Shown here piece by piece: positions 2,652-15,068 of a DNA stretch of 29,921 bases; within the stretch, counting starts at the first letter, position 1; each line of letters opens with the position of its first letter. The DNA lies in the IMG/VR virus record IMGVR_UViG_3300044611_000333, positions 1 to 29,921 of that record; one strand, written 5' to 3'. The position numbers were made by a program, and so were the translations under genes. Under the pieces are notes generated by a model that was not told the DNA's origin, ran no database searches, and was given only the letters and a program-made list of their open reading frames with translations. Source of the DNA: a virus.

Positions 2652-2933
2652 ATGAAGAATAGTAATTGTTTAGCCTTTGTGTTAACTATTGCTAAGTATC
2701 GGCGCAAGGGCGATTATATGCTCATCAGGAAGTCCAAACATGGATGGTTCCCTCACTTTGCAGCGATTATAGACTCAGCAGACGGTATTATCAAGATAGA
2801 GTTTGTCCCGATTAACCCAGAGCGTAAGTGGATACCACCTTTATTCTTTAAAGGTGAGATTGTGCTTACTCGATACAAAGAAATTAACAAGGAATGTTAT
2901 GACGAAATCCCTCGCGGAAGTGCTATCCGATAA
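2652..2933 (+). CDS. Small hypothetical protein
   Basis: I do not recognise this 93-residue protein. GAGG (2643-2646) lies 5 bases before ATG 2652. ATG 2718, giving MLIRKSKHGWFPHF, has its own AAGGG upstream and is a real alternative start; a conserved-looking core begins there. The core (KHGWFPHFAAIIDSADG, then IEFVPINPERKWIPPLFFKGEIVLTRYK) looks like a compact beta-rich fold. It follows the large terminase by 16 bases and overlaps the next gene by 35 bases, so it is cotranscribed with the packaging genes. Function unknown. Confidence 0.6.
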   Translation: MKNSNCLAFVLTIAKYRRKGDYMLIRKSKHGWFPHFAAIIDSADGIIKIEFVPINPERKWIPPLFFKGEIVLTRYKEINKECYDEIPRGSAIR

Positions 2934-3150
2934 AGAGCCAGTAGTTGCACCCGTAGTACCCGTAGTTGAACCAGTGCTAACCCAGACAGTTACTGATGTA
3001 GTACCGTTTGCTGAGAATGAGCGTGCGCCTGCTGATTGGACGCTTGTACCTGTTGATGGTGGGGAAGATCTCTACCAAGCAACTCATCGTGTAACGCGTA
3101 AGGTATTTGTTGGTACTATTGGCAACTTTAACGTTGCTCTTCGGGGATAA
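2899..3150 (+). CDS. Small protein with C-terminal ADW domain
   Basis: This is an 83-residue protein from ATG 2899, which has AAGGAA (2889-2894) just upstream. After a proline- and valine-rich linker (VAPVVPVVEPV) it ends in a domain of about 39 residues, ADWTLVPVDG...FVGTIGNFNVAL. The same domain occurs at the N-terminus of the hydrolase at 4703-5986 and again at 6019-6146. A free copy of the domain next to the portal suggests that it is a virion-binding or self-associating module, and this protein could be a minor head decoration or adaptor component. That role is inference; I know no named family for the domain. Confidence 0.65.
   Translation: MTKSLAEVLSDKEPVVAPVVPVVEPVLTQTVTDVVPFAENERAPADWTLVPVDGGEDLYQATHRVTRKVFVGTIGNFNVALRG
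3031..3147 (+). repeat. ADW domain, copy 1
   Basis: This encodes 39 residues starting ADWTLVPVDGG and ending FVGTIGNFNVALRG. The pattern shared with copies 2 and 3 is ADW, a GG turn, an aromatic-poor strand, then F-x-GT-(I/L)-x-x-FN. It is the most divergent of the three copies. Confidence 0.7.
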
Positions 3151-3152
3151 TT

Positions 3153-4700
3153 ATGCTAGCAGCCCGTAAACGATCTGTTGAAGATCCATGTGCAGCCTAT
3201 GACAGCTTATTGGACATCTGGACTCGTTCACGAGCTGTTATTGGGGGTGAGCGCTATGTTAAGGCAGTTGATACTTTACCTTCTAGCTCTAACATGCTTC
3301 TTCCGTTCTCCCCATCGATGACACTTGAGCAATACAATTTCTATAAGGGTGAAGCTGAGCTCCCTGGTATTGTATCACAATTTGCTAAAATGATTGTTGG
3401 TGGTCTCTTGCGTAAAGAGCCTCAGATCACATTCACTGATCAAGTGCCAGAAGAAGCCCAAGATTGGCTACGTAATGCAGTAGCTATGGATGGTAACTCC
3501 TTAGTATCCTTCCTTGATGAAGCGTTGTATGAAGAAGTGCAGACTAGTAGAGCGTGGGTTTATGTAGATTACCCTATCGTTGACCCTACTGCTGCTTCTA
3601 ATATGACCCAACAAGAATGGCAGGATGTCAAACCTTACCCAGTCATCTGGAAGGCAGAGTCTGTTATTAATTGGCAGACTGCTATCAGTAATGGTAAACA
3701 TCAGCTATCACGGTTAGTTCTTCGTGGTACCACTGAGAAGTATGATGAAGAGAATATTCATCCTCGTCTTATCGATACTATCTGGGTCCATGAGCTGTCC
3801 CCTGAAGGTAATTATCAGATTCGCAGATTTGAAGCTAGCGAAGTACAGCAGAAGGCAGCCAATGGTGCTACTCCTACACCTAGTGGCAATCCTGGATTCC
3901 ACGTCGTAGAGACGATTGAGCCTAAATCGTTTGGACTATCCCTTAAGTTTATTCCTGCATGGCCACTGAATGGTAGTATTCAGGCATCAGAGCCTATGAT
4001 TACTCCGCTTGTTGACAAGGAAGTTGCCTTGTACAATAAGATGAGCAGACGTAATCATCTTCTTTATGGTGCTGCTACATATACCCCTTGGGTTTCTTCT
4101 GATATGATTCAGGAGGACTTTGAAGATATCGTTAGCGGTGGTCTAGGCTCATGGATTAAACTACGTGCAGGTGATGCTATTGGTGTACTGGCTACCCCTA
4201 CAGATGCGCTTAAAGATAGTGATAGAGCAATTGCTGCTGCTATTGATGAGATGGCTCGTATGGGTATTCGGATGCTTACCCCTGAGTCTGCCCAATCTGG
4301 TGTAGCGCTAGAGATAAGAAACGCTGCTCAAACAGCACAGCTAGGCACCCTTAATGTTAAGATTAGTGCTACTATCTCTGATGTGTTAGCTCATTTGACT
4401 AACCGTAGGTATAACTTGCAGCTAACACGAGCTGATATCCAATTTCATCTAAGCGCTGACTTTAGTCCTGTACCCCTTGGTGCTGATTGGTTACGTCTTG
4501 CTACTGAATGGTATGAGAAGGGTCTTATCCCACGCTCTACCTGGCTTGCGCTTATTAAGGCTAATGATCTCATTGAGCCTGACTATAATGATGAAGAAGC
4601 TACAAAAGAAATTAACGATGACGAGCTGATTATGCCAAAGGGTGATCCCTCTGACTCAGCAGATCCTAAGAAGTTAAATCCTAAGAAGTACGAGGAATAA
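3153..4700 (+). CDS. Portal protein, DUF4055 type
   Basis: The 515-residue portal forms the dodecameric ring at one capsid vertex through which DNA is packaged and ejected. The N-terminal pattern (YDSLLDIWTRSRAVIGGERYVKA, SMTLEQYNFYKGEAELPGIVSQFAKMIVGGLLRKEP) is typical of the DUF4055 portal family, as is the later MGIRMLTPESAQSGVALEIRNA segment near residue 370. The C-terminal 35 residues are acidic and lysine-rich and probably disordered. Its length is normal for the family. It begins 3 bases after the preceding stop and ends 3 bases before the next start, with the ribosome site GAGGAA of the next gene lying within its stop region. It should contact the MuF-RNAP head protein and the connector proteins encoded downstream. 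Confidence 0.9.
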   Translation: MLAARKRSVEDPCAAYDSLLDIWTRSRAVIGGERYVKAVDTLPSSSNMLLPFSPSMTLEQYNFYKGEAELPGIVSQFAKMIVGGLLRKEPQITFTDQVPEEAQDWLRNAVAMDGNSLVSFLDEALYEEVQTSRAWVYVDYPIVDPTAASNMTQQEWQDVKPYPVIWKAESVINWQTAISNGKHQLSRLVLRGTTEKYDEENIHPRLIDTIWVHELSPEGNYQIRRFEASEVQQKAANGATPTPSGNPGFHVVETIEPKSFGLSLKFIPAWPLNGSIQASEPMITPLVDKEVALYNKMSRRNHLLYGAATYTPWVSSDMIQEDFEDIVSGGLGSWIKLRAGDAIGVLATPTDALKDSDRAIAAAIDEMARMGIRMLTPESAQSGVALEIRNAAQTAQLGTLNVKISATISDVLAHLTNRRYNLQLTRADIQFHLSADFSPVPLGADWLRLATEWYEKGLIPRSTWLALIKANDLIEPDYNDEEATKEINDDELIMPKGDPSDSADPKKLNPKKYEE

Positions 4701-4702
4701 TC

Positions 4703-5986
4703 ATGGGTAAGTACCTGCCAGCAGATTGGCAAATCACAGATGCAGGTGGTGGCAACATCGCTGCAGTTCATAAGCAATCTGGTGCCACTTTTGCAGGTAC
4801 CATTGCTCAGTTTAATACTCTCCTAGCTAATACCACGCTTGCAGATGTTACAGCTGTTTCAGCTAGTGGAAGTTCGCTTCCAACTGGTATTACGAGCTAT
4901 AAGCCACTTGGTGGAAATGGCTCATCGACTACTGCTGGACAAACAATTAGTTGCACTATGACCGTTCCACGAGCATTTGGAGCAGTACGTGTATTGTTTA
5001 TGAACTTCAACACTGCTGGTCAACGTGTTTTCAGAGCGCGTTGTGCAGCTTCTCCTACACTAAAACCAGCCTCTGGGGGCACAGGCCTGACACCTACCGA
5101 CATTACAGTTGGTGGCTCTACCACAATTACTGTCCCGATGGCTACGACTGTTAGTGGGCGTCTTGTGCCGGGCGCTGTATACTCAGACTTTATTCCTGTA
5201 GGGTCTGTAGCTCGAACAGATGTTGTTGGTGCTGATCCTGTGTTTTACTTCCGGGTGTACAGCGCTGACACTATTCAATACAACCCATTTAATTTCACAT
5301 CAGCCGAGTATGTAGCGGCCGGTAGGACCGGTATTGGTGGAGCAACTGCTGGGGATAGCGTAACAACCTGGAGTTCAGTAGATTTTACCTATATCCATGA
5401 AAATTCAGCTCTTTTCCCTAACTTTGCATTTGACTTCTTTACTGGCGGAAAAACATCAAGAGTGGGGTTATTTGGGGATTCCCTATCAGCCGGTGGTATT
5501 CCTATGGGATTCATGAAGGAGGCTGTCCTCGCTGGTCGAGATAACGTGACGATGGCTAATTTTGCTGTGGGTGGCGACTTCCGTGAGCAGACTTCAGCGA
5601 TTCTTCGCTCTGTTTTGAACTCAGGGTACGTGCCAGAGATCACTATTGTGTGGAATTACTCGGTCAACACATCGATGACTACACAAGCAAATAGAGACTA
5701 TCAATTCGGTTTGTTGTTGTCAGACGTCGAGTTTATTCGCTCGAAAGGGAGTAAGCCTGTAGTAGTACTGATGCACCAAGGGCCGGGAAGCGCAGAGCGT
5801 GCTGCGTACAATGTTCGCACGAAACTCGCGTTTGAAGATACCGATGTTCTGCTGCTTGATCTTGCCGAAGTGCTTGGTCCAAACGGAATTCAGGCACAAT
5901 ACACATCAGATGGTACTCACCTAACCGCATTGGCGTACGAGGTATTTGCTACGTACGCCACCCCCAAGGTGTTGAGTCTTATTTGA
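4703..5986 (+). CDS. SGNH/GDSL hydrolase with N-terminal ADW domain
   Basis: This is a 427-residue protein. Residues 7-43 are the ADW domain. A beta-rich middle (about 60-230) is followed by an SGNH esterase domain. Block I is GLFGDSLSAGG with the nucleophile S260, and block V is DGTHLTALAYEVF with D403 and H406. The GGD after FAVG (about 290) may supply block II glycine. SGNH enzymes deacetylate or de-esterify sugars such as O-acetylated capsule, lipopolysaccharide or peptidoglycan. A place between portal and head-assembly genes is unusual, since phage esterases more often sit with tail fibres. The shared N-terminal domain suggests it is attached to the virion. The substrate cannot be told from the sequence. 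Confidence 0.88.
   Translation: MGKYLPADWQITDAGGGNIAAVHKQSGATFAGTIAQFNTLLANTTLADVTAVSASGSSLPTGITSYKPLGGNGSSTTAGQTISCTMTVPRAFGAVRVLFMNFNTAGQRVFRARCAASPTLKPASGGTGLTPTDITVGGSTTITVPMATTVSGRLVPGAVYSDFIPVGSVARTDVVGADPVFYFRVYSADTIQYNPFNFTSAEYVAAGRTGIGGATAGDSVTTWSSVDFTYIHENSALFPNFAFDFFTGGKTSRVGLFGDSLSAGGIPMGFMKEAVLAGRDNVTMANFAVGGDFREQTSAILRSVLNSGYVPEITIVWNYSVNTSMTTQANRDYQFGLLLSDVEFIRSKGSKPVVVLMHQGPGSAERAAYNVRTKLAFEDTDVLLLDLAEVLGPNGIQAQYTSDGTHLTALAYEVFATYATPKVLSLI
4721..4831 (+). repeat. ADW domain, copy 2
   Basis: The copy runs from ADWQITDAGGGNIAAV to FAGTIAQFNTLLAN at the N-terminus of hydrolase 1. It is closest to copy 3. The identity extends upstream through the ribosome site and start codon (GGAATAATCATGGG at 4694-4707 and again at 6010-6023), so the whole 5' end of the gene was duplicated. 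Confidence 0.75.
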
Positions 5987-6018
5987 CCTACGCACAATTA
6001 TAATCTAAAGGAATAATC

Positions 6019-6177
6019 ATGGGCAGTAACTACACAGTAGCAGATTGGCAAATTAAGGATGCTGGTGGTGGTAATATTACTGCCTATAACCGCAGACTAA
6101 GGAGAAGTTCACTGGAACTCTCACACAGTTTAACACAAAGGCTAAAGGGGTCGCCCCTGTTGAGCCTCAGCCCGTAA
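6019..6177 (+). pseudogene. Frameshifted ADW-domain leader (copy 3)
   Basis: From ATG 6019, with the strong ribosome site AAAGGAATAATC, translation gives MGSNYTVADWQIKDAGGGNI and continues out of homology to a stop at 6175-6177 (52 residues). If one base is restored near 6090-6095, the other frame continues the domain as RQTKEKFTGTLTQFNTKA and runs into the hydrolase at 6177 without a stop. The two frames can meet only after the frame-0 stop TAA at 6087-6089. No slippery heptamer is present there (T AAC CGC), so a one-base deletion or a sequencing error is the simplest reading. The leader stop overlaps the next start as TAATG. Confidence 0.7.
6040..6146 (+). repeat. ADW domain, copy 3 (split by frameshift)
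   Basis: The first 17 residues (ADWQIKDAGGGNITAYN) read in the frame of ATG 6019. The rest (QTKEKFTGTLTQFNTKA) reads in the frame of the downstream hydrolase. Joined, they align with copies 1 and 2 across the whole domain. Confidence 0.7.
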
Positions 6178-7415
6178 TGTCACAAGTTAATCCTCTCACC
6201 GGGGGGGTTGAATTAACCGCAGGTGGCGTGCCGGTTTATGTGGGTGGATCGACTGTCAGAAAAAACGGAGTTGCCGCTTGGAGGCAAGGCGCTGGAATTC
6301 AGCAAACTAGCGCTGGCGGAGACAGAACCGCGCAACAGCAGATTCCTTATGATCGAAAATTCACCGGCGTACGGTTGGTTTATGCAAACTATTACCCAAG
6401 TGGTCCGGCAACACTGACCACCGTAAAGGTTGCCGTTGCCCCTATAGATGGAAGTAGTGGCAATACGCTAACGTGGACGCCTGTTACGTGGGCCGGGGCG
6501 GCATCAATAACACTGCCTGCGGCGGTAGGCAGCGCTAACAATTATGTTCCGTCTGTAGCATTCAGCGACTTTATCCCGATTACTGCCATATCAAGAACAG
6601 ACATACCTACCGCGCCTTATTTACTGCTTGTCCGAGGTTACGACGCCGCGCTTATTGTGGCCGGTGGCCCGGTAAATACTGCTGGTGCAGCGCAGTGGCT
6701 CGCCGATAGGGGCTATGTGTACCGTTACGGTGTTGCTGTTAGCGCGGGGGCTATTGTGGCTGACACAACGGCTATTACAACTGCCGCAACGTCAGGACTC
6801 GGTGTTATTAATGCCGTCGAGTTTTACGGGGCCGGCGATGCGCTTACATTCTACGTATTCGGCGATTCGCTAACTGCCGGCTACTCTGGCAATGCAGCGG
6901 GTTATCAGTCCGGTTGGCCGAACATGCTCGACTATATGTGGCGTACAAGCGGCAAAATTGGCGGGTGTGCGAATTGGGCGTGCGGTGGAATGACGCAGCA
7001 GAAATACATAGACACGATGAAGGCCGTATGCACAGCAAACGCTCCGTCAGCGGCTTATTTCTCCCCATACAGTCCAAATACAGGGTCGGCAACCCAAGCC
7101 ATTTGGGACTTGCAATACGCCATCGCAGCAGAAGCTATCGCATGGCTAATCGCACGAGGAATTCACCCTGTAATTTCTACTGCACTACCATCAGACTCGC
7201 TAAACGCCACACAGGACGGGTATAGAAAAGCATTTAATGCCAGACTAAAAGCGGATTACGCGCTAAATTGTACGGTTCTTGACCTTGCGCCGGTAGTTGA
7301 AGACCCGAATGATTCATCAAAGCAGCATCCTTTGATGAAATACGACAACGTTCACTTCAACGACGTGGGACACCAAGCGTGCGCCAATTATATCTACGCG
7401 AACCTCGCTTTCTAA
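6177..7415 (+). CDS. Second SGNH/GDSL hydrolase
   Basis: The 412-residue ORF starts at ATG 6177, which overlaps the leader stop (TAATG). No Shine-Dalgarno precedes it, so it is probably translated by coupling to the leader, or was once one gene starting at 6019. A beta-rich region (about residues 15-215) precedes the SGNH domain. Block I is YVFGDSLTAGYSG with S231, NWACGGMT may be block II (about residue 265), and block V is YDNVHFNDVGHQ with D390 and H393. The catalytic set is complete. The gene is visibly GC-richer than its neighbours: one sampled line, 6481-6540, is 38/60 G+C against 27/60 in the portal line 4441-4500. Its codons also differ, suggesting recent acquisition. Hydrolase 1 shares only the overall plan, so the two probably act on different esters. 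Confidence 0.85.
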   Translation: MSQVNPLTGGVELTAGGVPVYVGGSTVRKNGVAAWRQGAGIQQTSAGGDRTAQQQIPYDRKFTGVRLVYANYYPSGPATLTTVKVAVAPIDGSSGNTLTWTPVTWAGAASITLPAAVGSANNYVPSVAFSDFIPITAISRTDIPTAPYLLLVRGYDAALIVAGGPVNTAGAAQWLADRGYVYRYGVAVSAGAIVADTTAITTAATSGLGVINAVEFYGAGDALTFYVFGDSLTAGYSGNAAGYQSGWPNMLDYMWRTSGKIGGCANWACGGMTQQKYIDTMKAVCTANAPSAAYFSPYSPNTGSATQAIWDLQYAIAAEAIAWLIARGIHPVISTALPSDSLNATQDGYRKAFNARLKADYALNCTVLDLAPVVEDPNDSSKQHPLMKYDNVHFNDVGHQACANYIYANLAF

Positions 7416-7634: not shown

Positions 7635-10600
7635 ATGACTGAACAAAATGCTACAACTATTATTGGTGACCAGAAGATTGATCGCGCAGCTATGGTCAGG
7701 CTCTACACTGAACGATTAAATGGTAAAGTATCAACAATCATCGATGGACATGAGGTTAATCTAACTGCTGCTTTAAAACAGTTTAAATGGAACTCTACTA
7801 AACCCATTAATGATGCGGTGGATCTAGAACTACAGCGTATGATGCGTGAAGGATATAGGACTACTGCTGGTGAGCTAATCTCTTTTGGTCATGACACTAG
7901 TAATAACACTCATGGTATTTTGAGCAGAGGCTTTAAGGGATTCTTTGAGCCTGCTATTGTTCCCCGAAGTGTGTCAGCAGAGATTGTACTAAGTAAGCCC
8001 CTGATCAAGAATACGACCCTTGAATCAGGCTGGAATGGTGTTGTTAATGCAGAAAGGCTTAGAATTGAGCAGGCGATCCGTAAAGGCATAGCAGCAGGTT
8101 CAACCGAAGCCTCCATTATAGCAGATGTTCAAAAGACATTTGGGCTTACCCGTGTACAAGCATCAGGCTTAGTAGTAACAGCTACTACGAGTGTTTACGC
8201 TCAGGCAGATCATGCTGTTTACAAGGCTAATGAAAAGTTTTTGAAAGGATGGCAATATGTGGCTGTACTTGATAGCCGCACTACTCCTTTGTGCGCTCAT
8301 AGAGACGGTACTGTCTATCCGATATCAGATACAAGTCACCTTCCTCCAGCGCATTGGCATTGCCGTAGCACTACTATACCTGTTGTTAAGCGTTGGAGCG
8401 ACTTAGGTAACTTAGATAGCGTTGCAGCTACAAGAGCAAGGAATACTACAGGCCTTACTCCTGAGAAAATCAAGGAATATGATCTTGAAGCATTTAAGTA
8501 CTTTGATGGTAATGCTTTCGAGAAGGTCAGTTACAATGACTGGCTACTCAGACAACCTACCGATATTCAGCTTAGGCATCTAGGTGATTATACCAAGGTA
8601 AAGATGTTTCAGAATGGAGAATTAACAGTTGACAAATTCGTTACTCCGAAGGGTTCAAGCTTGGGTCTTCGAGACCTCAGAGAAGCTACCGGCGACCTTG
8701 CCGGAGGCTACAACGGTTCAGTGGAAGGCACAAGTAGGGTCTTCATCAACGCAAAAGAGCGACTTGATGCTATTAGGCTCGGATACACCACACCTGAAGA
8801 GATTGTATCAAGCGTAGAAGCCCGTAATGCACTCTTAGAGTATTACAAGCTCCAGTCAGGTGAATTAAATGGTACCCTATCAGTTACAAACTATCGAGGG
8901 ATTCTACCACATGTTAAGAAGGCCACCAAGAGTCGCGTTCTTAATACACCGCCTACTGATGAGCAACTACTCTTCAACCCTCTTACTAAACGGAGAGAGG
9001 ATAGCCGTCTCTATCAGCCTAATAAAGCTGTTAATGAACGTGCTATTTCGCTTGTTTCTAAGAGTGAAGTTCTAACTGATTCAGACAAGCAATTTATTCT
9101 AGGCTTCAAGGATGAGATTGCTAAATCTGTTGGCATCAATGAAGCTGCTGTAGTTACTGATAACCTTCGAGTAAGCTTTGAGCGCTTTCGTAGAAATGGT
9201 GAGCCTTGGGGTAATCTTAAAGCTGTGCTTAACTCTCAGATGAAGCATGATGTTACTAACGTGTCAGAGTATATTGAGACTCAGCTTAGGAATAACTCAG
9301 ACTTCTTCTATAAACTTAAGCAGGATGCATTTCTTGACCCTGTACTTGGACCTATTCAAATTGAGGATCTAGCTAATAATTTCCACAAGAATATTGCAGC
9401 TAAGAACCTCTGGGAAGAGAAGGTTGCCCCTAAGATTGGTAGAGAGTTACGCCCATATCTTGATAGGGATATTCCACCTAAGCTGTGGGTGCGCCTAGAG
9501 GATAAGGATCTTGAGGAGTTCTATAATAGGTTTGCAATGAGGCTGGCGGCTGATGATGCTCCTGATCGTGATCAGGTTGCTATTGGTCTTGGCCGTGATC
9601 TGCATAATCTTGCGAACTATCGAGGTACTAAGCAAGAGTGGTATGACCTAGGAGTTAAGCTTCTAGATCGTGCTAAGGATAAGGGATTCTACGAGCTTGA
9701 AACATTTGGAGTAAAGAAACGTAGAATGCGTAGTAGAATGTCTGGTCAATATTTTGGTCAGTATTATGATACATTCAGTGTAAATCTAAAGATTACAGAT
9801 CAGCGTATCAAAGAGTACTCTTGGCTTAACCGTGCAGTAGATGTGGGTTATCGCATAGGTGTGAATGATACGTTTGATAATGCTCTTAAGGTTAGGCCAG
9901 GTTTCAAGACATACTTTGGAAAATGGAATTATGATACACGTATCCCTATTACCTCTACTAGCAGCTTCTCCAACTTTCCAGCCGAGTTTGTCGACGATAA
10001 CCTTGCAGACGCTCTTAACTGGGCTAGTTCTACTAAGTACAAGATCGACCCTGATATGCATGACTTTGTCGAGAAACTGCTACTCTTTGCAGACGACAAA
10101 GGTAATGCAAAGCACTACGATACACTAAATCACTATCGTAAGTACATCGCCGCTAGAGGTGATGCTTATGAGCGATTCAAAATGATGAAGTATTATCGTG
10201 GCAAGGACATGGAGTTTGGAAGCCATTCCTTTGTTGATCATCGAGGTCGTATCTATGATAGCGGATTCATTAGTCCACAATCAGGTGAAACGTTCCGTCC
10301 ATTCTTAAGTACTGCTGAGTCTAAAGTACTTGGCCAGGAAGGATACGAGAACTTTCAAGATCAAGTAGGCTCCTTCCTAGGTGGCCTTTCAGATCAGTTT
10401 GAGGGTAGATACAATGGGCTAAGCAATACTGGTAGGCAGAAGATTGCGGTTAAGTGGAGGCCTGAGCTTGTTAAGCTTGGCAATCACATTATTCGCGCTA
10501 AGCCTAACGATATTCGTAGCGTACTAGAGATGCCATTTGTGCAGATGGTAGAAGGTGAGGAACAGGGTAAGTTGTTTAGGTTAGCCGTAGAAGCAGCTAA

Positions 10601-10883
10601 GATTGACAAACATCTTCTAGGCAACTATAGCGATTTGAGCCGACTTCAGTCGTACAAAACCGCGTTAGCCCTGGAACAAGATGCATCCTCCTCTGGTGCT
10701 CAGATCATTGCATTGACTACTAAGAACAAACAGCTTGCTGAGCTTAGTAATGTAGTACCTACACATCAGAAGCGTCGATTGTACGATGAGATTGCATCTG
10801 CCACATTCCAAGATCCTAGATTTAAGAAGCTCAATGAGCGCTTAGGTCTAACTGAAAAGGATCTTAGAAAAGCAGCAAAGGCT
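7635..10883 (+). CDS. MuF head protein fused to single-subunit RNA polymerase, exon 1
   Basis: Exon 1 encodes residues 1-1083 of a 1506-residue protein. Residues about 100-255 are a MuF-type minor head domain ending in the family signature: D213-SRTTPLC220, then LPPAHWHCRSTTIP with P238, H240 and C243. The second half is a T7/N4-type RNA polymerase. It has the DxxGR motif at D868 (VDHRGRIYDSGFISPQSG, compare T7 DWRGRVYAVSMFNPQG), motif A with the metal ligand D1016 (ALEQDASSSGAQ, compare T7 VDGSCSGIQ), and the start of motif B with R1078 and K1082. Residues 260-860 are mainly helical, as in the N-terminal region of such polymerases. MuF proteins are a few copies per head near the portal, so the polymerase is probably packaged. 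The exon boundary after GCT (10881-10883) comes from P1 pairing and protein alignment. If unspliced, translation ends at TAA 10908-10910, before motifs B and C. Confidence 0.9.
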
Positions 10884-11094
10884 CAACTGGGTCTTTTAAA
10901 ATTGGGTTAATTGCTGGGACATCCCTCGTTAGGGGACAATCAGCAGCCAAGCTTATCCAGGAATGGATTTGAAGGTTCAACGACTAGAGCATACCTTCTA
11001 GAACAGAAGATGAAGCTCATACACTCAAGTGAGTGGAAACGCCCAACACCGTGAGGTGAAGATATAGTCTGATCTATATGGTAACATATAGGAG

Positions 11095-11799
11095 TGCTAC
11101 CGAGCACATGTGAGGTATTAAAATGGAACAATGGAAGCAGATTGAATCAATAAATTATGCGATCAGTAACCACGGTAGCGTATACAGTAATGTAAGTCAA
11201 AGATTTTTAAAGCCATACCCGAATAGGCAAGGCTATCTGGTAGTTGATCTAAGGCGTGGAAATCAACGTTATATGATTTCTGTGCATCGGTTAGTAGCTC
11301 TTAGCTTTATTCAAAATCCTGGCAATAAACCTGAAGTAAATCATGATGATGGTAACAAACAAAACAATTATTATAAGAATTTACTTTGGGCTACTAAGCG
11401 TGAAAATATTCAGCATGCTTATGATACCGGATTAAACCCTAATGGCTCTGGTAAACCTAATGCTAAGCTGCATGAAACTGATATCTTGTCAATCAGAGAA
11501 CTTATGCTGATAGGTGTAAGCAACCAGATAATCGCAAATATGTATAGGGTTTCCAGCGGCACTATTAGTGCGCTAAGGCTTGGGCATACTTGGAAACATA
11601 TTTTTGGTGATGCATTGCTACGATCTGGACCTAACCCAATTAAAAAGTTACAGCCAGAGGATATCCCTGTAATACGTGAGATGTTCTTAAAAGGACTTCG
11701 AGACTGTGACATTGGAGCAGTATATAATGTTGCAAGAGGCACTATAAACCAAATTCGTCAAGGTAAAACTTGGATTAATTATTAACAAACTCGGTAGCA
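11095..11799. repeat. 10-bp stem enclosing the intron ORF
   Basis: TGCTACCGAG (11095-11104) and CTCGGTAGCA (11790-11799) are perfect inverted complements lying 18 bases before and 5 bases after the endonuclease gene. They close the ORF-containing loop, so the reading frame can sit there without disturbing the ribozyme core. Confidence 0.85.
11123..11785 (+). CDS. HNH homing endonuclease of the intron
   Basis: This 220-residue protein spreads the intron by cutting the intronless RNA polymerase gene. The NUMOD4-like start (WKQIESINYAISNHGSVYS) is followed by an I-HmuI-type HNH core: H55 in SVHRLVALSFI, N73-H74 in EVNHDDGNKQNN, N81/N82, then NLLWATKRENIQHA. Two tandem helix-turn-helix repeats follow (about 113-159 and 173-219), each with KL..x..DI..IRE......G...I..(M/V)Y.V..GTI..(L/I)R.G.TW. 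These should read the target site. GAGG (11112-11115) lies 7 bases before the ATG. All HNH residues are kept, unlike in the related-looking protein at 197-532. Confidence 0.93.
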   Translation: MEQWKQIESINYAISNHGSVYSNVSQRFLKPYPNRQGYLVVDLRRGNQRYMISVHRLVALSFIQNPGNKPEVNHDDGNKQNNYYKNLLWATKRENIQHAYDTGLNPNGSGKPNAKLHETDILSIRELMLIGVSNQIIANMYRVSSGTISALRLGHTWKHIFGDALLRSGPNPIKKLQPEDIPVIREMFLKGLRDCDIGAVYNVARGTINQIRQGKTWINY

Positions 11800-11834
11800 C
11801 CGGTGGATACTAACGACATCCGCTAAACATAATG

Positions 11835-13106
11835 CATAACATGGTGACCTTCTATGGCGCAGGCATGCGTACTGCAGTGCTTAACGTTGAGAACAAACTA
11901 TCTAAGATTCTAGGTAAGCAAGCTAATGTGCTAGTTGTAAGAGCCTCCGAGCGTAATGAAGTACTTGCCCAAATATCAGCTAGGGCTGCTAAAGTTCAAC
12001 GTTGGGATCCAGAGTCTGCTGATGAACTAATGCAGCTACGCAAGCAGGTTAAGGAGATCTTCGATAAAGGTCTTAATCCTGGTGATGAGCTAATGGAACA
12101 GATGTGGTTCCTTGACCCTAAGTCTAGAGATGTTGTTGAGAAGCTTACTAGGCAGTATGCCGAGGTTGTTACTCCTAACGACTTTGCAGTCATTGGTAAG
12201 CTTATGTCAGAGCACATGGAAGCCCAAGTTCCAATACTAGGAGACTTCACCAGATTCTTTGGTAGGTTGGCTGAAGACTATTTAGTTAATGCTAAGCCAC
12301 CTTCCACATCACTTAAACGTGGTGTTGATTGGGACTGGCAGCAAGCTATCAAGGAAGAGACCATTGGGGAGCGCAAGAAAAACCCGCCTAAGCTATTTAA
12401 TAGATTACCTGGGTATAACCCTAATGACCCTTGGGTAGACGTTGTATTTGGTATTAAGGATCGTAAATATCCTAAGAAGTGGACCCAAATACCCTGGGTC
12501 AACTTTGATGGTAAGGTTCTTGAGCAGTATTATACCCAACGCTTTGAAGAGAAGCTTGTATATAAGACTGCAGATGGTACTTGGATTACTAACATTATCC
12601 AGGTTGATCAGAAGACTGACCCTTCGTGGCTTGATGAAATTAAGAATAAGAGTGGGCAGATTAATGACGTTGCTGATGCCACAGGTGCTAGGACTGCATT
12701 TGCAGTTAATGGCAACCATAGTAATGACGCAACACTTGTTAAGAATTTCCACTTGTGGGGCAAGAAGAATAATGTGGGTACCTCTACCATTCATGACGCC
12801 TTCTTCTCCAACGCCGCTGATATGATCAATGCTAAATCTGCCCTACGAGTTATGTACGCAGATGCAGTAGATAGACAATCAGTCAAGCAAACATTAGATT
12901 TGATGAGGTCTAGGGGCTTACCAAAAGATTTATACGATAAGTACTTAGCCGAAGCAATAGCTAAGGGTATCATTCCTGTGGCTGGAAAGAGCCGAGTAGG
13001 TGGTAAGCTACTTACTGAGGAAGATATTCTTAAAAGAAGTGATATAACAAAACCGATACCAATAGGCTTCAAAGATGATCTTGGATTCTACGGGTTAGGT
13101 GGGTAA
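11835..13106 (+). CDS. MuF-RNA polymerase fusion, exon 2
   Basis: Exon 2 encodes residues 1084-1506. It completes motif B as RKAAK-A-HNMVTFYG, giving R1078, K1082 and Y1090. The spacing is the same as T7 R627/K631/Y639 and N4 R666/K670/Y678. Near residues 1377-1404 NHSNDATLVKNFH and then TSTIHDAFF match T7 VHSQDGSHLRKTV and LIHDSFG. D1404 is the second metal ligand (motif C) and H1403 its partner. The end, FKDDLGFYGLGG, parallels the short aromatic C-terminus of the family. An ATG at 11832 could start a separate ORF, but it is inside the intron end, has no ribosome site, and would begin in the middle of motif B. This is therefore an exon, not a gene of its own. Confidence 0.9.
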   Translation, partial: HNMVTFYGAGMRTAVLNVENKLSKILGKQANVLVVRASERNEVLAQISARAAKVQRWDPESADELMQLRKQVKEIFDKGLNPGDELMEQMWFLDPKSRDVVEKLTRQYAEVVTPNDFAVIGKLMSEHMEAQVPILGDFTRFFGRLAEDYLVNAKPPSTSLKRGVDWDWQQAIKEETIGERKKNPPKLFNRLPGYNPNDPWVDVVFGIKDRKYPKKWTQIPWVNFDGKVLEQYYTQRFEEKLVYKTADGTWITNIIQVDQKTDPSWLDEIKNKSGQINDVADATGARTAFAVNGNHSNDATLVKNFHLWGKKNNVGTSTIHDAFFSNAADMINAKSALRVMYADAVDRQSVKQTLDLMRSRGLPKDLYDKYLAEAIAKGIIPVAGKSRVGGKLLTEEDILKRSDITKPIPIGFKDDLGFYGLGG

Positions 13107-13883: not shown

Positions 13884-15068
13884 ATGACTATTCGTACCAA
13901 CGTTACAGGCGCTACTGAATACGCCCTGCAATCGGCTATCAGCGCCTATTCTAACGAAGCTTACACCAATGCCAAGAAAATCTCTGGCACTGGTATCGTT
14001 TCCTCTAATCCTGACATTGATGTCAACACTGAGACTTTTATTGGTCAAATGCGCTGGCGTAAGCCGTTGGATGCTAAGATCAACATCGCATCCCTGACGG
14101 ACTCCTCTGAAGGTACTAAGACCGTCGTTAGTTCTGATTACGCTACCTATATCAAATCTGTGCGTACGCATGGCGCTGAGAAGGTAAATATGCAGCAAAT
14201 CGTTTCGAAAGAAGACGGCCTTGCTCAAATCGGTACCGACTTTGCTGAAACCCGCGCACAAGACGAGCATAACGCTCTGTTGGCTGTTTGTAAGGGTGTT
14301 GCTGTTGCTGAAATGCTTAACGGTGCTGCTACTGGTTCTGGTGCTACTGGCCTCGGTGGTCAATCGTTTGATAATGACCCTGCTGATAAGAAGTATGGCT
14401 TCTACGTTGACCTGGGTGCTAACGCTCCGGTTATTGCTGCCTCTACCTCTGTTCAAGGTGCTGCTCGTGCTGAGAACTTCCTGAAAGCTCTGGCCATGGG
14501 TTATAAGGATTACGAGCCGGAATATGCTTACTTGGCAACTTCACCTGAAGTAATGATGTCCCTTCGCTCTGCCAATATGGTTGACGAAGATCGCGTTACC
14601 GAAGCTAACGTTGAATTCCAGACGATTCTTGGTGGTAAGTTCCGCCTGATCTCTACTCGCGCTGCTCAGGGTCTGACTGGTGCTCAGCTAACCAAGATTA
14701 ACACCGGTGCTGGTGTTGATATCGTTGGTGTGAAGACCTCCTTCATCATCCTTCCTGGCTCTATTGCTTTCCAAGGTCTGGAAGTTCCTGATGAAGTTGA
14801 AATCACTCGTAACGGCAGCTCTTACAAGGGTGGCGGCTCTACCAACATCTGGTATCGTTGGGGCTATGTTGCTCATCCGCAGGGTTACACCTGGAATGGT
14901 TCGCAAGAGAAGTTCGCTTCTGATGCTGATTACCAAGCTGTTGGTGATACCTCTGAAACTCAGGGCTTGTTGACCGCTGCTACCATTGGTACCTCTACCC
15001 GTGGTGCTTGGGTTCGTAAGGCTTCCTCTGCCTTGTCGCTGGGTATCCTGCCGGTGTTCCACGCCTAA
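13884..15068 (+). CDS. Major capsid protein
   Basis: The 394-residue shell protein presumably has the HK97 fold. It follows the scaffold by 9 bases with the ribosome site AAGGAA. Visible pieces are the N-arm (MTIRTNVTGATEYALQSAIS), a region like the E-loop (IGQMRWRKPLDAKINIASLTDSSEGTKTVVSSDYATYIKSVRTHG, about 52-96), a long spine-helix segment (AQIGTDFAETRAQDEHNALLAVCKGVAV) and late beta strands (GVKTSFIILPGSIAFQGLEVPDEVEITRNG). Codon use is strikingly different from its neighbours, favouring CTG, CGT, GGT and TCT with few CTA or AGG codons, as expected for the most abundant phage protein. No N-terminal prodomain is apparent. Confidence 0.9.
   Translation: MTIRTNVTGATEYALQSAISAYSNEAYTNAKKISGTGIVSSNPDIDVNTETFIGQMRWRKPLDAKINIASLTDSSEGTKTVVSSDYATYIKSVRTHGAEKVNMQQIVSKEDGLAQIGTDFAETRAQDEHNALLAVCKGVAVAEMLNGAATGSGATGLGGQSFDNDPADKKYGFYVDLGANAPVIAASTSVQGAARAENFLKALAMGYKDYEPEYAYLATSPEVMMSLRSANMVDEDRVTEANVEFQTILGGKFRLISTRAAQGLTGAQLTKINTGAGVDIVGVKTSFIILPGSIAFQGLEVPDEVEITRNGSSYKGGGSTNIWYRWGYVAHPQGYTWNGSQEKFASDADYQAVGDTSETQGLLTAATIGTSTRGAWVRKASSALSLGILPVFHA

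Follow-up and report, generated by a model that had tools for sequence, protein, structure and literature searches.

What is a domain of about 38 residues doing in three copies around one portal gene, once at the end of a small free protein and twice in association with a hydrolase? The question is raised by a stretch of viral DNA of 29,921 nucleotides, referred to below as the window, in which the gene order is terminase, small protein, portal, hydrolase 1, hydrolase 2, Mu-F/RNA polymerase, major head protein and tail genes. The terminase (1226-2635) was assigned from its sequence and from synteny with annotated relatives, and the portal protein (3153-4700, plus strand) by phrog_145 (E 2.4e-59) and DUF4055. 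Directly 5′ of the portal lies an open reading frame with positional counterparts, which encodes the free protein of 83 aa (2899-3150, plus strand). The domain, called ADW here, forms its C-terminal part (copy 1, ~3025-3144, plus strand) and is preceded by a Pro/Val-rich stretch. Copy 2 makes up the first ~45 residues of the ORF at 4703-5986 (4703-4837, plus strand), while copy 3 (6019-6140, plus strand) precedes the body of hydrolase 2.

An initial annotation of this DNA had recognized the three copies and read them as an interchangeable anchor. The first of these points was borne out by local alignment against 2000 shuffles, in which all the pairs scored above their shuffle maxima: 71 against 44 for copies 1 and 2, 56 against 49 for copies 1 and 3, and 117 against 46 for copies 2 and 3. 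Chance likeness was ruled out by these shuffles together with reversed and shuffled ORF controls and the portal loci of relatives. A search of the 29,921-base record seeded with copy 2 gave no fourth site. It had also been noted that copies 2 and 3 have a common ribosome site and start, and indeed the block GGAATAATCATGGG occurs exactly at 4694 and at 6010 (4694-4707, overlapping the portal stop, and 6010-6023, both on the plus strand), with 0 occurrences in 100 shuffles. The ADW parts of these two copies are ~55% identical, far more alike than the hydrolase bodies behind them.

The leader of hydrolase 2 had been described as frameshifted, and copy 3 is in fact split by a −1 break near 6090. 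Its first half (to A-Y-N) is read in one frame from 6019 to 6090 within a leader ORF at 6019-6177 (plus strand), while the second half (F-x-GT-L-x-x-FN, 6090-6140) lies in the −1 frame, in phase with the ORF at 6177-7415. The stop of the leader overlaps the ATG of hydrolase 2 (TAATG). Each half matches the profile of the fused copies separately (E 8.7e-8 and 2.2e-4, copy 3 itself having helped to build that profile), so the ancestral gene was probably intact. Programmed −1 frameshifting was considered and rejected, as no canonical slippery heptamer could be seen by eye where the two frames meet. A genuine mutation, reinitiation at TAATG or an error in the sequencing may each lie behind the break, and no second record of the phage was found that would tell them apart.

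Hydrolase 1 (4703-5986, plus strand) consists of the ADW domain, a middle region and an SGNH/GDSL hydrolase part (5468-5941, plus strand) with a GDS motif and DxxH, and the body of hydrolase 2 (6177-7415, plus strand) is a paralogous SGNH/GDSL hydrolase. The two are homologous (26% identity over 381 aa, E 4e-22), the catalytic D259, S260, D403 and H406 are invariant between them, and FGDSL and DGTH / DNVH can be read as the SGNH motifs. Both proteins are filed as SGNH-like, since their Pfam SGNH/GDSL scores (29.5 bits for hydrolase 2, 18.9 for hydrolase 1) are below the curated cut-off of 32.9 bits. By fold comparison the C-terminal part of hydrolase 1 is GDSL-like, with a best E of 2.6e-5 obtained from a low-confidence model; the full AlphaFold2 model of this protein was made from two input sequences and has a pLDDT of 40, and at most its SGNH part is usable. 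By tblastn hydrolase 1 has no phage relative and hydrolase 2 has only distant ones (best PhiPLPE gp33, 26%), and the search of viral contigs with hydrolase 1 alone or the window portal alone gave no relatives.

The homology of the hydrolases makes copies 2 and 3 the front ends of tandem paralogues, which leaves copy 1 as the sole copy in the window that is independent of the other two. For the same reason the window alone overstates swapping, and the evidence for it is supplied by other genomes. The notion of an interchangeable anchor is thus supported in part, by the varied partners found elsewhere, whereas the window hydrolases are by themselves poor evidence of exchange. The GC content is 0.43 in the leader of copy 3 and rises to 0.53 in the hydrolase 2 body that follows (0.44 in the window), and this rise, with the divergence of the bodies, fits either a body that was replaced while its anchor was kept or a body that diverged faster.

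Relatives of the window were drawn from IMG/VR by portal alignments. A profile made from the three window copies alone detected an ADW domain adjoining the portal in 81 of the 117 distinct portal loci, and the iterated profile did so in 98 of them, which correspond to 88 of the 104 clusters formed at 90% DNA identity. The ADW gene is at most 60 nt from the portal start in 85 of these 98 loci, and reversed and shuffled ORFs gave no match to the profile below E 0.05. The consensus can be written as P-[SA]-[ND]-W-x-I ... I-x-A-x-N ... T-G-x-x-F-x-G-T-x-x-x-F-N-x-x-L-R. A pattern search that did not depend on the portal, made with a tight subset of the alignment, returned 14 loci, all of which adjoin a portal of the same lineage. 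No ADW was confirmed in contigs of prokaryote genomes, where the pattern covered one tight domain subset only, and when 50,697 phages were searched with the domain by tblastn, only radical SAM, MiaB and hypothetical proteins matched, at chance level (E 2-7). DSS3_VP1 and Kolga have related portals without the domain. From these searches the ADW family appears to be lineage-specific, with the reservation that a pattern search can easily miss a domain of 38 residues.

One relative was found among deposited phages, namely gp45 of the metagenomic phage EBPR siphovirus 1 (JF412302). Like the window protein, gp45 is small and carries ADW at its C-terminus; its gene overlaps the portal start, and portal, MuF-RNA polymerase and HNH genes are neighbours in common. 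It is annotated as hypothetical only, and in contrast to the window no fused copy was found in that record. In another genome (L027:1152-1600) two adjoining small ADW proteins lie 5′ of the portal, an apparent duplication of the free form. The portal-5′ small proteins of L069, L075, L076, L082 and L083, and also those of L041, L132 and L135, have a similar layout and a faint resemblance to ADW (P-R-N-W..., or an ending L-R-G) that is too weak to establish kinship; the hhalign probability is 11% for L069, L075, L082 and L083, and for L041, L132 and L135 the likeness is by eye only.

The copies fall into two classes, and both the free and the fused forms claimed in the initial annotation are real, the former in small genes 5′ of the portal and the latter at the N-termini of larger proteins. 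In class C, to which copy 1 belongs, a small protein encoded directly 5′ of the portal has a variable N-terminal tail and carries ADW at its C-terminus, where the domain usually ends 4-6 residues before the stop. In class N, which includes copy 2, there are mostly a few residues between the initiator and the domain, behind which come unrelated proteins. Among the 67 records searched whole, some of which are near-duplicates, 62 carry ADW; the copy is single in 55 of these and 7 have extra copies. The profile search thus gave what the initial annotation had looked for, the domain joined to other C-terminal proteins in other genomes, including DUF1800, collagen-like and several unclassified ones.

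Behind ADW there is an SGNH hydrolase in the window, a DUF1800 protein in L242 (5133-7085, 650 aa, E 3e-49), and further proteins of 820 aa (L021), 280 aa (L022) and 125 aa (L152). L178 has two proteins fused to ADW, one of them with a collagen-like run, while in L053 ADW is placed after a collagen-like stretch and in L063 a free form of 67 aa is found. Among the collagen-like partners the sequence GPQGPTGPQGP was read. Most fused partners belong to no recognised family. The DUF1800 protein of L242 is encoded by the first sizeable ORF after the terminase, and DUF1800 is a family without a function assigned in Pfam.

In eight different genomes the fused domain retains W, F-x-G/D-T and F-N even though the copies have low identity overall. 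The class N copies have a mean mutual identity of 37% and so resemble one another more than class C (32%), and they are 28-37% identical to the class C copy of their own genome, compared with an average of 32% for unrelated N-C pairs. By these identities class N tends to look like a maintained form and not solely a product of recent local duplication, in a domain too short for firm trees.

An AlphaFold2 model of the domain made with 46 sequences (mean pLDDT 90) has three strands and a helix in the order beta-beta-beta-alpha. A search of this fold (45-residue domain) against PDB and viral structure libraries gave nothing below E 0.17, and comparison of 47 domain members with PHROGs and Pfam, and of the domain with PDB sequences, gave no credible match. 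The earlier remark that no named family is known for ADW therefore holds in all these libraries. In the libraries and papers searched we found no description of the family, of its near-universal portal-side gene or of the cassettes outside the tail module. The design of an anchor with exchangeable effectors is already known; the ADW family itself is unnamed.

The ADW-fused gene is the first after the terminase in L022, L152 and L242 and is preceded after the terminase by small ORFs only in L021 and L178, while an ADW gene follows the portal in L063 and, directly, in the window. The genes behind the fused ones encode a tail fibre (phrog_4176), tail collar families and an Ig-like protein, and the cassette neighbours include a pectate lyase family (E 4.6e-73) and Laminin_G_3 (E 1.3e-42). 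A run of adsorption genes with tail fibre, collar, pectate lyase and lectin-like neighbours was found in L021, L178 and L063. Such a run was not recognisable in L022 and L152, where the neighbours match nothing useful, and several large neighbours and fused parts have no match at all.

Two genes of the head region may be described here on their own account. At 7635-13106 of the window a Mu-F head morphogenesis domain is fused to a single-subunit RNA polymerase. The polymerase is interrupted: a group I intron matching RF00028 (E 1.7e-21) occupies 10844-11091, the gene of an HNH endonuclease lies at 11123-11785, and the C-terminal part resumes at 11832-13106. This interrupted order recurs in EBPR siphovirus 1, and in L152 the Mu-F and polymerase parts form one uninterrupted protein of 1534 aa. 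The fusion suggests a head-packaged polymerase. The major head protein (13884-15068) has a codon-usage distance of 0.605 from the other genes, the largest of those measured, and a GC content of 0.495; its codon bias may reflect high expression.

We favour, with a probability of roughly 60%, the reading that ADW is a lineage-specific virion-docking module with one fixed copy and an anchor that is reused for swappable adsorption proteins. In this mechanism ADW would be a small beta-beta-beta-alpha docking module of one tailed-phage lineage, and nearly every member would use it in a fixed manner as the C-terminus of the small portal-5′ protein. In some members a second use would be added, in which a class N copy anchors by its N-terminus an adsorption protein encoded beside the portal, and keeps that protein's C-terminal part exposed on the virion, where it could bind the host envelope or act on it. 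The two tandem hydrolases of the window would then de-esterify surface polysaccharide of the host, as SGNH tail fibres do; by this analogy they are probably polysaccharide esterases. The domain family, its two architectures, its neighbours and its apparent restriction to the lineage are seen in the sequences, and virion docking, surface display, a single site for both forms and the substrate are what we infer.

A common socket for the free and fused forms, which might lie on the capsid hexamers or at the portal/neck, is plausible. Since the fixed ADW is at the C-terminus, the fused ADW is mostly at the N-terminus, and the identity within a genome is 28-37%, this socket stays a candidate. As most carriers have one ADW copy, the anchor role is drawn from a minority of them, and for none of the carriers was a virion proteome or structure found. 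A wider proposal is that of a universal plug-in site at the portal/neck or capsid, where the fixed ADW protein and the same fold at the N-terminus of arbitrary enzymes or fibres would allow interchangeable tools to be displayed from the head or neck instead of the tail tip; we put this forward only tentatively and consider it somewhat doubtful.

The main rival to docking holds that ADW recruits proteins to the portal in head assembly, the portal-5′ protein being an assembly factor or an internal protein and the fused proteins being loaded in the head and ejected, or serving as helpers, without surface display. Gene position favours it, with the class C gene lying within 60 nt of the portal in 85 of all 117 loci, and the Mu-F head protein fused to RNA polymerase indicates that the same lineage may package proteins. 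Nevertheless, the partners and neighbours of the fused copies (SGNH, collagen-like, tail fibre, lectin-like, pectate lyase) resemble outer adsorption proteins and do not favour it, and we judge the assembly explanation unlikely. That nearly every member has an ADW copy linked to its portal gene suggests a role in structure or assembly, and this, together with the position of several ADW-fused genes among fibre and collar genes, also speaks against the idea that the hydrolases are soluble enzymes released at lysis, with ADW serving as a dimerisation or folding domain and no docking at all. For some Klebsiella phages it has been proposed that depolymerases lack an anchor and are soluble (PMC6872550), and the free portal-5′ form could be a partner in trans, but overall such an explanation is improbable.

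It can further be asked whether ADW has any role in the fused proteins, as recombination beside the portal might repeatedly join incoming genes to an ADW 5′ part, with copies 2 and 3 of the window simply arising by tandem duplication of one gene. The common ribosome site and ~76 nt of similar DNA in copies 2 and 3, the homologous hydrolase bodies and the frame shift that breaks copy 3 are consistent with this. However, the retention of W, F-x-G/D-T and F-N in eight genomes at low identity implies selection, and the class N copies are closer to each other than to class C. Such hitch-hiking is very improbable.

If docking is correct, ADW is a very small candidate anchor whose partner is directly testable. 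The domain gives a name-ready family to a near-universal gene of a large, mostly uncultured phage lineage, and it offers a marker for adsorption proteins whose genes lie outside the tail module, a place in which they tend to be overlooked. Should the portal-5′ and fused proteins truly share a site, the head or neck would be a modular mount for host-surface enzymes.

Three further known systems invite comparison. Head-completion proteins of the lambda gpW type are small and encoded between terminase and portal. The gene at 2899-3150 is likewise small and similarly placed, and an ADW gene stands 5′ of the portal in 98 of 117 loci; homology to a head-completion family was not seen, the whole 83-aa protein having no match in Pfam or PHROGs and the 47 domain members no credible one. 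As for the enzymes, it is established that SGNH tail fibres act as deacetylases of surface polysaccharide (PMC9569702; esterase activity, PMC13123978), and p-nitrophenyl acetate has been used for the esterase assay (PMC13123978). The window hydrolases resemble gp63.1 of Escherichia phage G7C and gp66 of Pectobacterium phage Possum in having an SGNH domain with GDS and DxxH (PMC9569702). They differ in what comes before it, which is ADW in the window and a tail-spike attachment domain in Possum gp66 and G7C (PMC9569702).

The combination of a conserved N-terminal anchor and exchangeable depolymerases is already known (PMC6872550). Like the receptor-binding-protein anchors of the T7/K1F type, of the Klebsiella KP32/KP36 type and of the G7C gp66 anchor-branch (PMC6872550), ADW is a conserved N-terminal module before variable, in those systems enzymatic, C-terminal parts, which here are SGNH, DUF1800, collagen-like and unclassified. 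The ADW-fused genes also often lead a run of adsorption genes, as those of known anchors do. No homology to an anchor family was found in PHROGs, Pfam or PDB sequences, or among structures below E 0.17; ADW and the known anchors have no Pfam family in common, and ADW has only ~38 residues with a beta-beta-beta-alpha model. The genes of known anchors are in the tail module, whereas those of ADW lie between terminase, portal and head genes. A further difference from the known anchors is that ADW occurs as well at the C-terminus of a free protein whose gene adjoins that of the portal.
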